This document shows, piece by piece, positions 53 through 4,026 of a DNA stretch of 25,777 bases. The DNA comes from a virus. The notes under the pieces are model-generated. The model was not told the origin of the DNA. It did no database searches and saw only the letters and a program-made list of their open reading frames with translations. The stretch's first letter is position 1; every line of letters begins with the position of its first letter. The position numbers and the translations under genes were made by a program. The DNA is taken from positions 1 through 25,777 of IMG/VR virus record IMGVR_UViG_3300015360_000175; one strand, 5' to 3'.

Positions 53-739
53 GTGGTCCCGTCGCGGATTCGCGCCGGCGATGTGGTGCGTTTGGGCACC
101 CACCGCCTGGTGTGCTGCGACGCGAGGGACGTGACGCCGCCTCCGCGCGCGGGGGTCGTGCTTTTTGATCCGCCGTTTGAAGATCAAACGCTCGTGCGCA
201 ATTTTCCGCTGTCGGATTTCGCTGCGGGCGACCTGTTGGTGTTTGGCAATTGCTCCCACGCAACACAGCGCAACGTGCAGACCTCACTGCCGTGGCGTTT
301 TCAGTTCGTGTGGGACGCGGTCGCACGCCATTGCGCGGCCGCGGATCGCCCGCTGTGGGGGCACAAAACCTGCGACTGGTTTTCGACGCGAAACGTGTAC
401 GACGGGCGCACCGTGCGCGATCCCGACAGCGGAAGCGGAGACGACCCCCGAGGCGGGCCTTTGACCTCGGTCTATCGCGCGCCGATTACCACCGTTGCCG
501 AGCACCGTGCGTACGCCAAGCCGGTCCCATGGCTCGCGATGTTGCTCGGCAACTGCACGGCGGGTCTGATTGTCGATCCGTTCGCGGGGACCGGGAGCGG
601 ATTGCTCGCCGCCGAGATGCTCGGTCGGCGTTGGTGGGGCGTCGAAATCTCCCCACTTCGCTGCGACATCATTGTGGCGCGCTGGGAGTCGTACTCTGGC
701 GAAACGGCTGAAATCTCGACCAGCAACCCCTTGACGTAG
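53..739 (+). CDS. DNA methyltransferase, beta-class motif order (N6-adenine or N4-cytosine)
   Basis: This protein probably transfers a methyl group from S-adenosylmethionine to an exocyclic amino group of DNA bases, giving self-modification or protection of phage DNA. The early segment GDVVRLGTHRLVCCDARD resembles the N-terminus common in phage DNA methylases. Motif IV follows as LFDPPFED (about residues 37-44). Motif I comes late, as IVDPFAGTGSG followed by GVEIS (about residues 173-199). IV before I is the beta-class order. The start shown is a GTG at 53, but the frame is open back to the window edge, so the true start may lie upstream and the gene may be incomplete here; an upstream ParB-like domain, as in the gene at 2563, is possible. 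No target-recognition region can be named. The -35 of a promoter candidate overlaps its last codons. The family call is secure; the base modified is not. Confidence 0.85.
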   Translation: MVPSRIRAGDVVRLGTHRLVCCDARDVTPPPRAGVVLFDPPFEDQTLVRNFPLSDFAAGDLLVFGNCSHATQRNVQTSLPWRFQFVWDAVARHCAAADRPLWGHKTCDWFSTRNVYDGRTVRDPDSGSGDDPRGGPLTSVYRAPITTVAEHRAYAKPVPWLAMLLGNCTAGLIVDPFAGTGSGLLAAEMLGRRWWGVEISPLRCDIIVARWESYSGETAEISTSNPLT

Positions 740-759
740 GGCACCTGCCCTGTTAGTGT
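731..759 (+). promoter_or_regulatory. sigma70-like promoter candidate with extended -10
   Basis: TTGACG (731-736) is followed by a 17-bp spacer and TAGTGT (754-759), with TG at 751-752 making an extended -10. It overlaps the end of the methyltransferase gene and would drive the small-gene chain starting at 823. The inverted repeat GGGCA-CC-TGCCC (739-750) lies in the spacer, where a repressor could act. Confidence 0.5.
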
Positions 760-793
760 TCCTGTGTCGGGATCACTCAGACACCTGACGACC

Positions 794-825
794 TCTCACT
801 GGGCACTGCCCGGAGCCACACCATG
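794..825 (+). repeat. start-associated direct repeat A, copy 1
   Basis: This 32-bp sequence is identical to 1080-1111 and ends exactly with the ATG of the 66-aa ORF. It contains an 11-bp inverted repeat (GGGCA-C-TGCCC, 801-811) and a GGAG Shine-Dalgarno core 7 nt before the ATG, so it works as a portable ribosome binding site and possibly as a protein-binding site. Its layout recalls the start-associated sequences of cluster K mycobacteriophages. Confidence 0.9.
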
Positions 826-1023
826 TTCAGCACCACGCAGACGGTTGACCTGATCGGCACGACCCGGACGTTCTCGACGAATGACCACGCCGTCGGGGTG
901 TTCGTCACGGAATCGAACGGTGCGATGTCCCAGCGCGTCGGCACCTCGCAGACGCCGCGGTTTCGGTCCCAAAAACAGTTCGCCTCCTGGGTCCGGTCTC
1001 ACCTCAACAGCGGGATCCGGTGA
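823..1023 (+). CDS. small hypothetical protein (66 aa)
   Basis: I do not recognise this protein. It is small and soluble-looking, with no membrane segment or cysteine pattern; the C-terminal third is basic (PRFRSQKQFASWVRSH). The ATG at 823 is chosen because it sits at the end of repeat A, 7 nt after a GGAG Shine-Dalgarno core. It is the first gene after the promoter candidate at 731-759. Its stop overlaps the GTG of the next micro-ORF by 4 nt (GTGA, 1020-1023). It occupies the variable position in the first of two cassettes with conserved flanks. A small early accessory or host-takeover protein is possible, but nothing in the sequence shows a function. Confidence 0.6.
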   Translation: MFSTTQTVDLIGTTRTFSTNDHAVGVFVTESNGAMSQRVGTSQTPRFRSQKQFASWVRSHLNSGIR

Positions 1024-1112
1024 CCGCGACCGCCCTCATGCAACTCGTCGGGCAGCGCACAGGCTGCCTGACACCACTTTCTCACTGGGCACTGCCCGGA
1101 GCCACACCATGA
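1020..1112 (+). CDS. 30-aa micro-ORF bridging two genes
   Basis: This ORF begins at a GTG overlapping the previous stop by 4 nt and ends at a TGA overlapping the next ATG by 4 nt. The first residues (VTATALMQLVG) closely match the N-terminus of the HTH protein at 1351 (NATALMQLVAG), because its first part is repeat B. Its C-terminal part is repeat A read as protein. It looks like the truncated 5' end of a duplicated HTH gene, kept open so that ribosomes can pass from one gene to the next. It may be a translational relay rather than the source of a functional peptide. Confidence 0.4.
   Translation: MTATALMQLVGQRTGCLTPLSHWALPGATP
1025..1050 (+). repeat. direct repeat B, copy 1 (truncated HTH-gene 5' end)
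   Basis: These 26 bp are identical to 1362-1387, which encode residues 5-12 of the HTH protein. This copy is followed by unrelated sequence and then by the second repeat A, so it marks one edge of a duplicated cassette. Confidence 0.9.
1080..1111 (+). repeat. start-associated direct repeat A, copy 2
   Basis: This is the second identical 32-bp copy of repeat A. It ends with the ATG of the 81-aa ORF and has the same inverted repeat (1087-1097) and GGAG core. The copies start 286 bp apart. Confidence 0.9.
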
Positions 1113-1354
1113 AAACAGCAACGACGAACGACAATTCTTTACCCATGGTCCCGATCGTGACGACAGAAACGTCAATGCGATGGCTAAATCCCACCACACA
1201 GAAGGTTTCCTCAAAAACAGCGGCGGTGCGCCTCGCCCGCGAGCTCGGCTTTCGTGTGCTGACATCCGGCGGGCTGGTGGAGCAGGTCCAGCTTACGACG
1301 CGTGACGACGAGCCCGAGGCGTGGGCGTGGGGTGTCACGGTGCATCCCGAATGA
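1109..1354 (+). CDS. small hypothetical protein (81 aa)
   Basis: I do not recognise this protein. It has a polar N-terminus, then a segment MRWLNPTTQKVSSKTAAVRL (about residues 23-42) leading into a short helix and strand. There are no membrane segments. The ATG at 1109 is chosen over in-frame upstream codons because it follows the repeat A ribosome binding site and overlaps the preceding TGA by 4 nt; longer versions would run into the 66-aa ORF. Its own TGA overlaps the ATG of the HTH gene (1351-1354). It fills the variable position in the second cassette and shows no obvious similarity to the 66-aa protein in the first. Confidence 0.6.
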   Translation: MKTATTNDNSLPMVPIVTTETSMRWLNPTTQKVSSKTAAVRLARELGFRVLTSGGLVEQVQLTTRDDEPEAWAWGVTVHPE

Positions 1355-1794
1355 GTGTGAACGCGACCGCCCTCATGCAACTCGTCGCCGGGAGATCCCC
1401 GGCGGCGCTGCGTGGCGCGCTGTCCGCGCTGCGCGCAATTCGGGTGGACTCCCCGGTCGTCACTCATCGCGTCTCGCGCGTTGCGCAGGACGCGCTCACC
1501 GATCCGGGCGCCGAGTGGTCAGATGCCGAGCGCGAGGCGCTGGCGGATGCGGCGGGGGCGAGCGCAGACCACCCGTACGCCGACGATCCGGCACGTGACT
1601 GTCTCTCCGCACTCCTCACGACGTCCGGTCTCTCGCAAGTCGAGCTCGCGCGCGTGCTGGGTCGCGACGAGCGGACGGTGCGACGGTGGCTGGGTGGGCA
1701 GATGCCGATCCCGCAATCCGTCGCCGACTGGCTCGACCGCATGGCGGTTGAGGTCGAGCCAGAGGCGGTGACGCTGCGCGTGTCGCGCGGGTGA
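1351..1794 (+). CDS. HTH DNA-binding protein (147 aa)
   Basis: This is probably a DNA-binding regulator. The C-terminal half holds a helix-turn-helix of Xre/Cro or antitoxin type: CLSALLTTSGLSQVELARVL then GRDERTVRRWLGGQMPIP (about residues 84-121), followed by SVADWLDRM. The N-terminal half is alanine- and arginine-rich, predicted helical and not recognised. The ATG at 1351 overlaps the previous stop by 4 nt. It is the last gene of the plus-strand chain and converges with the minus-strand operon ending at 1832. The palindromes at 739-750, 801-811 and 1087-1097, or the one at 2373-2396, could be its operators; this is inference from proximity. The antitoxin-like HTH raises the possibility of a toxin partner, but none is evident next to it. 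Confidence 0.7.
   Translation: MSVNATALMQLVAGRSPAALRGALSALRAIRVDSPVVTHRVSRVAQDALTDPGAEWSDAEREALADAAGASADHPYADDPARDCLSALLTTSGLSQVELARVLGRDERTVRRWLGGQMPIPQSVADWLDRMAVEVEPEAVTLRVSRG
1362..1387 (+). repeat. direct repeat B, copy 2 (inside HTH gene start)
   Basis: This 26-bp sequence is identical to 1025-1050 and lies within the first codons of the HTH gene. It is presumably the source copy. The two B copies start 337 bp apart. Confidence 0.9.
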
Positions 1795-1816
1795 CACTTC
1801 GCGCTTCCGTTGAGCA

Positions 1817-1837
1817 CGATGACGTAACCGGTCATCG
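1817..1837. terminator. weak hairpin between convergent genes
   Basis: CGATGAC and GTCATCG form 7-bp arms around a 7-nt loop between the plus-strand HTH gene and the end of the minus-strand RHH gene. There is no T tract on either side, so a role as a bidirectional terminator is only suggested by position. Confidence 0.25.
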
Positions 1838-2086
1838 GCGCGCGCGCTTGGCGAGAGTTTCACGTGAAGCATCAGCGGGCGCGGGGCGTGGGTCCACGCG
1901 CATCGGGAGCGCGAGGTACCCGCGAATCAGGTCCGAGACGGTCAGCCGGCGCGCTTGCGCGATCGCTTGGATGACCCGTTTCTCGGCAGCGGTGACCTTG
2001 ATGCGGACGTCGAGCGTGCGGACGTCGGAAAGGAAGGGTTCCCGAACCTCCTTTCGGGAACCCTTGGCGTCGGTGGCGTCGGTCAT
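1832..2086 (-). CDS. ribbon-helix-helix (CopG/Arc-like) protein, 84 aa
   Basis: This is probably a dimeric DNA-binding repressor or accessory protein. The core reads LDVRIKVTAAEKRVIQAIAQ then RRLTVSDLIRGYLALP (about residues 25-62): a short strand followed by two helices, as in ribbon-helix-helix proteins. The basic C-terminus may be disordered. The ATG overlaps the stop of the upstream gene by 4 nt on the minus strand, so the two genes form one operon from the promoter at 2396-2373. Small RHH proteins often repress their own promoters, which makes the palindrome in that promoter a natural target; that link is inference. Codons 8-18 form a perfect hairpin with AGGAGG in the loop. Confidence 0.65.
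   Translation of the reverse strand: MTDATDAKGSRKEVREPFLSDVRTLDVRIKVTAAEKRVIQAIAQARRLTVSDLIRGYLALPMRVDPRPAPADASRETLAKRARR
2034..2065 (-). repeat. 13-bp perfect inverted repeat inside RHH gene, loop AGGAGG
   Basis: The arms at 2034-2046 and 2053-2065 are perfect complements and the 6-nt loop reads AGGAGG in the mRNA sense. It lies over codons 8-18. No ATG, GTG or TTG follows the loop within normal Shine-Dalgarno spacing, so it is not an internal start. It could be an mRNA pause or control hairpin, or a DNA binding site. Confidence 0.85.
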
Positions 2087-2316
2087 GCGTCGTCGGTCGT
2101 GTCGACCAGCGCGCCGTTGACCAGCGCGAAGGACTGCGCGTAGCCATCCCAGCCGTCCGCCTCGATCTGCGCGGCGAAGGCGTCAGACACTGGGGCTGTC
2201 TCGAACACCCCATCGGGATCCCGCGCGTCGCGGCGGGCGTTGGCGATCGCATCGGCCGGCGACGTGCCGAGCGCGTAGATGGAGGCGGAATCGTAGGCTG
2301 CGTAAAAGTTGGGCAT
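2083..2316 (-). CDS. small hypothetical protein (77 aa)
   Basis: I do not recognise this protein. It is acidic and alanine-rich, with aromatic residues near the start (NFYAAYDSASIYALG) and a middle segment SPADAIANARRDARDPDG that looks helical. It has no cysteines and no membrane segment. The ATG at 2316 follows a GGAG core with 9-nt spacing. It is the promoter-proximal gene of the minus-strand operon and overlaps the RHH gene by 4 nt. An acidic small protein next to an RHH protein could be a partner or toxin-antitoxin component, but nothing in the sequence proves that. Confidence 0.6.
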   Translation of the reverse strand: MPNFYAAYDSASIYALGTSPADAIANARRDARDPDGVFETAPVSDAFAAQIEADGWDGYAQSFALVNGALVDTTDDA

Positions 2317-2372
2317 GGTCTGAATCTCCGTGGCGGTGGTCTGTCGTGCGGCGTCGTTCGCCTCACACCAGA

Positions 2373-2396
2373 AACGTAGCCCCGTATAGCTACGTT
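2373..2396. promoter_or_regulatory. palindromic operator candidate AACGTAGC-N8-GCTACGTT
   Basis: Perfect 8-bp arms with an 8-bp centre fill the space between -35 and -10 of the minus-strand promoter and overlap the -10. A protein bound here would block RNA polymerase. The RHH protein (1832-2086) and HTH protein (1351-1794) are the nearby candidates. Confidence 0.75.
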
Positions 2397-2401
2397 GTCA
2401 A
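2373..2401 (-). promoter_or_regulatory. sigma70-like promoter of the minus-strand operon
   Basis: On the minus strand a perfect -35 TTGACA (2401-2396) is followed by exactly 17 bp and TACGTT (2378-2373). Transcription would start near 2366, about 50 nt before the ATG at 2316. Confidence 0.7.
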
Positions 2402-2562
2402 CCCCTCGGGATTTGTCGCCCCAGTCAGACTGGCGACACGGAGCCTCAGCGCGGCCATATTGTACCAGCGCCCGCCGCGCGTAGCCTGCGCGTCGTGTAG
2501 ATTGCCGATGAGCCGCGCCTTCGAAGCGCGAGCGTATCCCCACACCGAAACACCACTCCCTG

Positions 2563-4026
2563 ATGGCACTCGACACTGCCGACACTGCCGACACCGCACA
2601 CGGCGACAGGTCCACGGGCGAGCTCATCACCAACGCATGGGACATCGCACGCGTGATCCCCTACGCACGCAACCCGCGCAAGTTGAGTGACGCGCAGATT
2701 GCTGGCATCGCCGGATCGCTGAAGCAATTCAAGTTTCGGCAGCCGATCGTCGTCGACAAAGACGGCGTAGTCATCGTGGGGCACACGCGCCTGCAGGCGG
2801 CGCGACAGCTGGGTTGGACGCACGTTCCGGTGCACGTGGCCGACGATATGTCCGTCGCAGACGCCAACGCGTACCGGATTCGCGACAACCGATCGCACGA
2901 AGCCGGCCAATGGGATGAAGACTTGCTGGCGGTCGAAATCCGAGCGCTCATGGCCGACGAGTACGACATAGGGCAAACGGGCTTCCTGTCGGACGAGCTG
3001 TCGAAGATCCTTGAGCGAGAGCAGGAGGTCGCCGCGCCCGATGCGCTGGTGCTTGAGCCCGTGCCGCTTGTGTTCGCGCCCGATGTGATCGCGGGCAAGG
3101 CGTTTGAGCACTACCGAGCGACTGGCTTCCCGTATCGTACGCTGCCGCTCTGGCAGTGCATGATGGCCATCAACAACCTCGCGGCGACGGAAACCGAATC
3201 GCTCGCCCGCACCACGACCGCGTATCAGGTGGCCGACACGTTTCACCCGCACCGCTATCACGCGGCCGCGACGGGCATGCGCTCGCCTGTAGAGTCGTTC
3301 CATATCGACAAGTCGCTGCGCAAGGTCTGCGATCACGCGGTGGAGAACAATCTGCCGAGCATTTACGCACTTCTTCAGCTCGTGAACAGCACGCAATCGT
3401 GCTCCAACTTTCGACCCGGCTTCGCGGCACTCTTGTACCGCACCTACGGCAAGCCCGGCGACACGGTGCTCGATACTTCGACCGGCTACGGCGGGCGGCT
3501 CGTGGGATTTATGGCGTCCGGGCTCGGTCGCTACATCGGCATTGACCCGAACGTGCCAACGTACGAAGCCAATACGCGAATGGCCGAGGCGCTCGGCTTC
3601 GCTGATCGCGTCGAGCTTATCAATCTGCCGGCCGAGGATGTGCCACACGCACCGCTCGAAGGACGGTGCGACTTCGCCTTTACGTCGCCACCGTACTTCG
3701 CCAAAGAGCGCTACAGCGACGACGACACTCAGTCCTGGAAGCGATACGGCACCGGCGAGGCGTGGCGCGTCGGCTTTCTGCGCCCGATGCTCGCGCTACA
3801 GTTCGCCGCGCTCAAGCCAGGTGCGTTTAACATCGTGAACATTGCCGATGTCATCATCAAGAAGGAAAGCTACCCGCTCGAACAGTGGACTATCGAAGAC
3901 GCAAAAGCGCTCGGATTCATCTATCACCGTACCGATCGCTTCGTCATGCCGTCGCGCATGGGATCGCCTGACGACGACGAACCGGCCACGGAGCCCGTGA
4001 TCGTGCTCCAAAAGCCGAGCGCATGA
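2563..4026 (+). CDS. ParB-like domain fused to a DNA methyltransferase
   Basis: This 487-aa protein joins two recognisable parts. Residues about 24-130 are a ParB/sulfiredoxin-like domain: NPRKLSDAQIAGIAGSLKQF, then QPIVVDKDGVVIVGHTRLQA, with the GHTR box near residue 72. A linker and a helical region (about 190-295, including CSNFRPGFAALLYRTYG) follow. The C-terminal part is a SAM-dependent methyltransferase: motif I VLDTSTGYGGRL (about 302-313), IGIDPN after it, and the catalytic TSPPYF (about 374-379). Here motif I precedes IV, unlike the enzyme at 53. ParB-methylase fusions are common in phages and are thought to modify phage DNA. The codons just after the start contain a 9-bp unit repeated three times (2572-2598, DTA-DTA-DTA). 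The gene stands alone after the divergent region and ends 49 bp before TerS. The base modified is unknown. Confidence 0.85.
   Translation: MALDTADTADTAHGDRSTGELITNAWDIARVIPYARNPRKLSDAQIAGIAGSLKQFKFRQPIVVDKDGVVIVGHTRLQAARQLGWTHVPVHVADDMSVADANAYRIRDNRSHEAGQWDEDLLAVEIRALMADEYDIGQTGFLSDELSKILEREQEVAAPDALVLEPVPLVFAPDVIAGKAFEHYRATGFPYRTLPLWQCMMAINNLAATETESLARTTTAYQVADTFHPHRYHAAATGMRSPVESFHIDKSLRKVCDHAVENNLPSIYALLQLVNSTQSCSNFRPGFAALLYRTYGKPGDTVLDTSTGYGGRLVGFMASGLGRYIGIDPNVPTYEANTRMAEALGFADRVELINLPAEDVPHAPLEGRCDFAFTSPPYFAKERYSDDDTQSWKRYGTGEAWRVGFLRPMLALQFAALKPGAFNIVNIADVIIKKESYPLEQWTIEDAKALGFIYHRTDRFVMPSRMGSPDDDEPATEPVIVLQKPSA

Follow-up and report, generated by a model that had tools for sequence, protein, structure and literature searches.

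Near its left end, the phage DNA analysed here probably carries an early accessory-gene exchange slot, which would run from a 5' leader to an HTH regulator gene, and the tandem found there would be a second cassette stacked in that slot. The window, by which we mean the whole stretch of DNA analysed (25,777 nucleotides), is a 25.8-kb linear fragment from a metagenomic virus record. Its phage is tailed: genes for both terminase subunits (small and large), for a DUF4055-type portal and for the tail are present. Near the left end, flanked by a fragment of a methyltransferase gene on one side and a small divergent operon on the other, the order is repeat A, ORF1, repeat B, repeat A, ORF2, repeat B. 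As comparison of the loci shows, seemingly unrelated small genes fill the space between the same flanks in different phages; we infer, in addition, that slot genes are exchanged by recombination among related phages, aided by the conserved flanks.

Repeats, leaders and genes of the tandem

Repeat A (TCTCACTGGGCACTGCCCGGAGCCACACCATG) occurs in two exact 32-bp copies and repeat B in two exact 26-bp copies (1025-1050 and 1362-1387), the latter extending to 30/31 identity between 1020-1050 and 1357-1387 (Table 1). The 32-bp repeat is the longest exact direct repeat of the whole window; base-shuffled windows (n = 20) reach only 14-16 bp, and when one copy each of A and B was taken out of the window the longest repeat fell to 17 bp. 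The initial annotation had described these exact pairs, with different small ORFs of 66 and 81 aa between each A and B, the second B being the 5' end of the HTH gene and the first a truncated copy of it, and all of this was confirmed.

ORF1 and ORF2 show no detectable kinship, as 35 of 300 codon shuffles score as well as the real pair. Credible relatives were sought for ORF2 in IMG/VR and for both ORFs in phage genomes, and none were found; tblastx of the whole window was too noisy to use in G+C-rich DNA. The predicted structure of ORF2 (pLDDT 42) is unusable. ORF2 ends two codons before the old slot stop, the sequence at 1352-1360 reading TGA-GTG-TGA, and that original stop (TGA 1358-1360, inside GTGA) remains in the ORF2 frame.

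Repeat A is the 3' end of a 5' leader, in which a G+C hairpin runs into the Shine-Dalgarno sequence GGAG, followed by the start codon. RNA folding gives two hairpins per leader, GTCGGG...CCTGAC and then GGGC-ACT-GCCC into GGAG, and upstream of A the likeness of the two leaders continues as the first of these, a common GTCGGG...CCTGAC plan. Among the sequences searched, the combination of a 3-nt-loop G+C hairpin, GGAG and a start codon was found only at the two A sites and in the leaders of three other phage contigs, handled below as G001, L013 and L011. The loops of these hairpins vary (ACT, ACC, TTC, ATT) and in one G001 leader the stem is changed yet paired (GGCCG-CAC-CGGCC); the leader alignment holds five distinct hairpins only. 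An Rfam search returned nothing relevant.

The transcription start predicted for the promoter-like pair before leader 1 coincides with the first base of the first hairpin of that leader. The same layout with a 17-bp spacer precedes 5 of the 7 leaders examined, leader 2 being left out of this count, against a background of 0.24% of positions; a promoter-like pair was looked for upstream of leader 2 and is absent. A stricter consensus promoter scan calls none of the leader promoters, which are therefore predictions only. The inverted repeat in the promoter spacer is weak evidence alone, since one match of its type at ≤2 mismatches is expected in about half of shuffles. Other promoter inverted repeats lie in G001_r1, in L011 and in the divergent promoter, and the L013 promoter region has none with a stem of ≥6.

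Table 1. Positions of the features of the tandem locus in the window
Feature	Position	Strand	Basis
Promoter-like pair TTGACG-17-TAGTGT before leader 1	731..759	+	Layout match; predicted transcription start near 766
Inverted repeat AGGGCA-CC-TGCCCT in promoter spacer; candidate operator	738..751	.	Sequence
First hairpin of leader 1, GTCGGG...CCTGAC	766..789	+	RNA fold; leader z -0.84, ordinary for base composition
Repeat A copy 1: hairpin GGGC-ACT-GCCC into Shine-Dalgarno GGAG, 7-nt spacer, ATG	794..825	+	Exact repeat, fold; homologous in G001, L013, L011
ORF1, slot occupant 1: 66 aa, pI 11.7, orphan	823..1023	+	Codon usage favours own frame; no family or relative
Repeat B copy 1: relic of HTH gene start (GTGACC...), overlapping ORF1 stop codon	1020..1050	+	30/31 against HTH start; GTGACC as in L013, G001
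GTCG common to HTH relic and start of leader 2; putative recombination joint	1047..1050	+	Comparison of 1020-1060, 1357-1397 and both leaders
First hairpin of leader 2, 10-bp stem	1047..1072	+	Fold of 1040-1114, z -3.2; resembles G001 HTH-operon leader GTCAAGCAGCGCACCGCTGCCGAC
Repeat A copy 2	1080..1111	+	Exact repeat
ORF2, slot occupant 2: 81 aa, orphan	1109..1354	+	Codon usage best in own frame
HTH gene, beginning at ATG 1351 or GTG 1357; its 5' end is formed by repeat B copy 2 (1357-1387)	1351..1794	+	HTH profiles; homologues L013 52%, G001 about 48%

The locus in related phages

IMG/VR was searched with the pattern CTCACNGGGCNNYGCCCGGAG, which four stretches match. Three of them (L013, G001 and L011), all with the same DUF4055-type portal family, carry the A core upstream of a start codon and each has an HTH relative; the fourth, L012, is taken as a chance match, lacking both a start codon and an HTH relative. 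On L013, a 75-kb contig, 25 nt identical to A are followed by an unrelated 87-aa ORF, a GTGA overlap and a B-like HTH start (CTCATGCAACTGGTCG against CTCATGCAACTCGTCG in the window), and the HTH genes share only 67-69% DNA identity. In G001 the slot is occupied by a diverged leader, a 259-aa gene, GTGA and an HTH homologue; the A pattern occurs twice there before different genes, within a 100-bp promoter-leader segment repeated at 89%. In L011 the pattern directly precedes an HTH gene, with no slot gene. Thus A stands before ORF1, ORF2, the L013 slot gene, two G001 genes and the L011 HTH gene, and a filled slot beside a full-length HTH gene is found, besides the window, in L013 and G001 only, the G001 leader at that place being the diverged one.

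GTGACC opens the HTH gene of L013 and that of G001 as well as the first B, and the TGA within it stops the preceding gene, which sets the right edge of the slot at the stop codon overlapping the HTH start. The slot proteins (ORF1, ORF2 and those of L013 and G001) have no family matches and no significant mutual similarity in shuffled alignments; for ORF2 and the L013 protein, 7 of 300 shuffles are as good, which is not significant among ten pairs. The core of the exchange idea put forward in the initial annotation, different ORFs between the same two flanks in related phages, is therefore borne out by four occupants of 66, 81, 87 and 259 aa with no detectable relationship to each other. Other copies of A exist among the relatives and the layouts differ, so that a unique A within one identical layout, which would have spoken decisively against the idea, is refuted. 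That each gene arrives with its own ribosome binding site and palindrome, as was also proposed, found no support; A seems to belong to the leaders of this group of phages.

Further searches added no copy of the locus. The exact 32-mer of A has no match in IMG/VR beyond the record of the window itself, DNA and leader searches of phage genomes gave no matches, a portal-based search for further relatives yielded no new locus copy, and a parent with the order A-ORF1-HTH was not found. The three matches to the A pattern in prokaryote genomes were rejected as chance, lying in unrelated sequence with no HTH or phage relative, and a search of prokaryote genomes with the HTH alignment gave none that was confirmed. 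L005 was rejected as a relative since only its ParB-methyltransferase is related, and the close relative L004 starts inside the HTH gene, so the slot locus is not covered there. As a separate observation, G001 (L007 3300-9000) has three or more short operons in which the last gene is an HTH gene, and between these operons lie further repeated segments of 54-57 bp at 93-96% identity.

The early operon on the other strand was compared with L004, to which this region is 98.6% identical up to window position 2021. Beyond that position L004 carries a copy of the leader and first codons that belong to the gene next to it (CACGGAGA..GACCATGACCGACTTTTACGCAGCC), and an extra ORF of 62 aa lies between the two leader-first-codon copies. 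Alignment of L006/L004 1-1140 (minus) with window 1728-2495 shows that the leader and first seven codons are repeated, with an in-frame fusion to a ribbon-helix-helix gene exactly at 2021. Leader repeats before unrelated small genes thus recur, both in G001 and on the other strand of L004, and from the latter case leader-linked rearrangement affects both early operons, with different leader sequences.

Several further features of this region were recorded. A perfect 10-bp hairpin at window 2036-2062 (minus), GGTTCCCGAA-AGGAGG-TTCGGGAACC, lies in the 5' part of the ribbon-helix-helix gene; it has a Shine-Dalgarno-like loop with no start codon just after and is absent in L004. The perfect 8-bp inverted repeat AACGTAGC...GCTACGTT at 2373-2396 spans the divergent promoter spacer and -10, and is likely an operator; L004 keeps its arms with a changed loop. 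At 2429-2495, 67 bp of non-coding DNA are identical in L004, with diverged flanks, and in L006 315-380 (minus) a strong 9-bp hairpin, GCCGCTCAC-ACAAC-GTGAGCGGC, precedes an internal gene start (fold z -5.3). Window 2563-4026 encodes a single protein of 487 aa, which combines a ParB-like N-terminal part with a DNA methyltransferase, and precedes the small terminase gene.

Origin of the tandem

In the model we favour, which places the slot in a group of uncultured tailed phages with a DUF4055-type portal, the left flank would consist of the promoter, a 5' hairpin, a second hairpin running into the Shine-Dalgarno sequence and the start codon, and the right flank of the HTH gene start overlapping the stop of the slot gene (GTGA). 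The tandem would have formed when one lineage contributed promoter, leader, ORF1 and the first 31 nt of the HTH gene, and these became linked to another unit that consisted of a leader with no promoter, ORF2 and an HTH gene. Joining through a 4-nt match (GTCG) would stack two cassettes in one operon and leave the first B as a scar. The first B leaves the HTH gene sequence after CTCGTCG and leader 2 opens with GTCGGG, so that GTCG is common to both sides of the joint; a match of 4 nt may also be chance. The homologous exchange proposed in the initial annotation is upheld in part: different ORFs do lie between constant flanks, but a clean exchange from A to B would swap one gene for another and leave a single one, not two, and the tandem needs an extra misaligned joint at which the HTH start meets leader 2. 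As for the order of events, the first hairpin of leader 2 resembles that of the G001 HTH operon (GTCGGGCAGCGCACAGGCTGCC against GTCAAGCAGCGCACCGCTGCC), for which reason leader 2-ORF2-HTH looks resident and promoter-leader 1-ORF1-B would have been added.

Two complete A-ORF-B units in succession and in the same order could also result from tandem duplication of one unit followed by divergence of one ORF copy. We regard this as very improbable, since the A copies agree at 32/32 and the B copies at 30/31, yet the likeness of ORF1 to ORF2 does not exceed that of codon-shuffled sequence, and duplication would leave unexplained both the different leaders upstream of A and the unrelated occupants in L013 and G001. 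An assembly chimera, in which the contig joins co-occurring variants A-ORF1-HTH and A-ORF2-HTH through short repeats, has to be weighed because the record is a metagenomic linear fragment and the exchange model itself predicts slot variants within one sample. It is unlikely: the joint between the first B and leader 2 rests on 4 common nt, too short for an assembler overlap, and upstream of A the two leaders differ, so that leader 2 is no copied stretch. Even if the contig were chimeric, the conclusion on the slot would stand.

The hairpin kept with changed loops, and the re-paired stem of one G001 leader, are what would be expected if A were conserved for function alone (ribosome loading, mRNA stability or a regulator site), exchange proceeding through longer homologies and the first B serving as a functional coupling frame. 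That frame is open for 30 codons, from GTG 1020 to TGA 1110-1112, and its stop overlaps the ORF2 start (ATGA); against this, its codon usage looks non-coding and it matches the HTH start to the nucleotide. Functional conservation of A is compatible with its use as an exchange point, so only the coupling-frame half of this account competes with the stacked-cassette origin, and the account as a whole seems to us rather unlikely.

Known devices and proposed regulation

Among known devices, the PeSL of T4-type phages and the SAS of cluster K mycobacteriophages come closest, and a defining feature of each fails here. In work of Arbiol (in 2010) and Comeau (in 2014), PeSL, which combine a promoter with stem-loop motifs, reportedly mediate small-gene shuffling in T4-type phages. 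Two citing papers (PMC4503421, PMC3797505) likewise link promoter plus stem-loop motifs to this shuffling. PeSL resemble the present case as conserved regulatory repeats between unrelated small early genes that are thought to be exchange points, and in recurring at shuffled-gene junctions in relatives, here L013, G001, L011 and the G001 100-bp repeat. They differ in having a promoter and terminator between the genes; here the leader ends in a start codon and the right flank is coding, a terminator-like site was looked for in 600-2600 and none was found, and the hairpins sit in the leader beside the Shine-Dalgarno sequence.

The SAS/ESAS elements of cluster K are short repeats with a Shine-Dalgarno part directly before the starts of different gene families, about half of them with an upstream inverted repeat (PMC3203893). 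Repeat A is likewise placed directly before the start codons of unrelated genes, so the resemblance to SAS suggested by the initial annotation holds for the plan. It does not extend to the sequence, as the 13-bp SAS (GGGATAGGAGCCC) has no match here at ≤2 mismatches and 2 at 3 mismatches against 3.6 expected, and here the HTH gene start adds a downstream flank.

In acr-aca operons, variable small genes are co-transcribed with an HTH gene, and an inverted repeat lies in the core promoter, sometimes with a similar second one (PMC9410906). By analogy, the slot architecture is anti-CRISPR/Aca-like: in the window, L013 and G001 an HTH gene lies downstream of variable small genes in one apparent operon with GTGA overlaps. 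The difference is that no known acr gene was recognised by the family searches and the HTH protein is not significantly Aca-like. When the fold predicted for this protein (pLDDT 79) was compared with known structures, Aca2 and other HTH proteins of the Xre type came out among the nearest, none of them significantly (Foldseek Aca2 E 1.3), and comparison with the Aca proteins in the PDB, to which this test was limited, gave no significant match (Aca1 at E 0.03 with a profile and 0.29 with a single sequence). The protein has an Aca resemblance and no family membership.

For archaeal viruses, the sections of PMC11065993 considered here describe small early genes that are unrelated but preceded by upstream sequence of high similarity; one of them is predicted to encode an HTH regulator, and the shared sequence served to find anti-defence genes. 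The common upstream sequence and the HTH regulator are shared with the present locus; the archaeal sequences differ in their archaeal promoter motif, and those sections describe no hairpin-Shine-Dalgarno block or coding right flank. On that precedent, the slot genes are candidate anti-defence genes and no more. Regulatory repeats around shuffled small genes are a known kind of device; what is new here is that the right flank is coding and ties each occupant to an HTH gene.

Early transcription would give one mRNA with the slot gene and the HTH gene, and because the HTH start overlaps the slot gene stop (GTGA), both proteins would be made from it. The HTH protein may repress the promoter through the repeat at 738-751, as Aca proteins do through a core-promoter inverted repeat (PMC9410906), and probably limits expression of its own operon; by the same analogy, an early role directed at the host or against its defences is probable for the slot genes. 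Both the promoter repeat and the A hairpin contain the half-site GGGCA/TGCCC, though with spacers of 2 and 1 nt. It is a tentative and rather doubtful suggestion that the HTH protein, encoded on the same transcript, also targets the A hairpin on the mRNA, the slot gene then being controlled at both transcription and translation. If so, any anti-host gene landing between A and B would be regulated at once, and the slot would be a place where counter-defence genes can be plugged in.

Small early genes come and go quickly in phages, and the joints of such exchanges are rarely seen. At this locus both edges of the slot are placed to the nucleotide: the left one by the start codon that follows A, the right one by the stop codon that overlaps the start of the HTH gene. 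Several genes that fill the slot are known, and what looks like a stacking event has been caught together with its scar. The A-B pair may also be used as a probe in environmental phages, in which the sequence between would be a candidate early host-directed or counter-defence gene.
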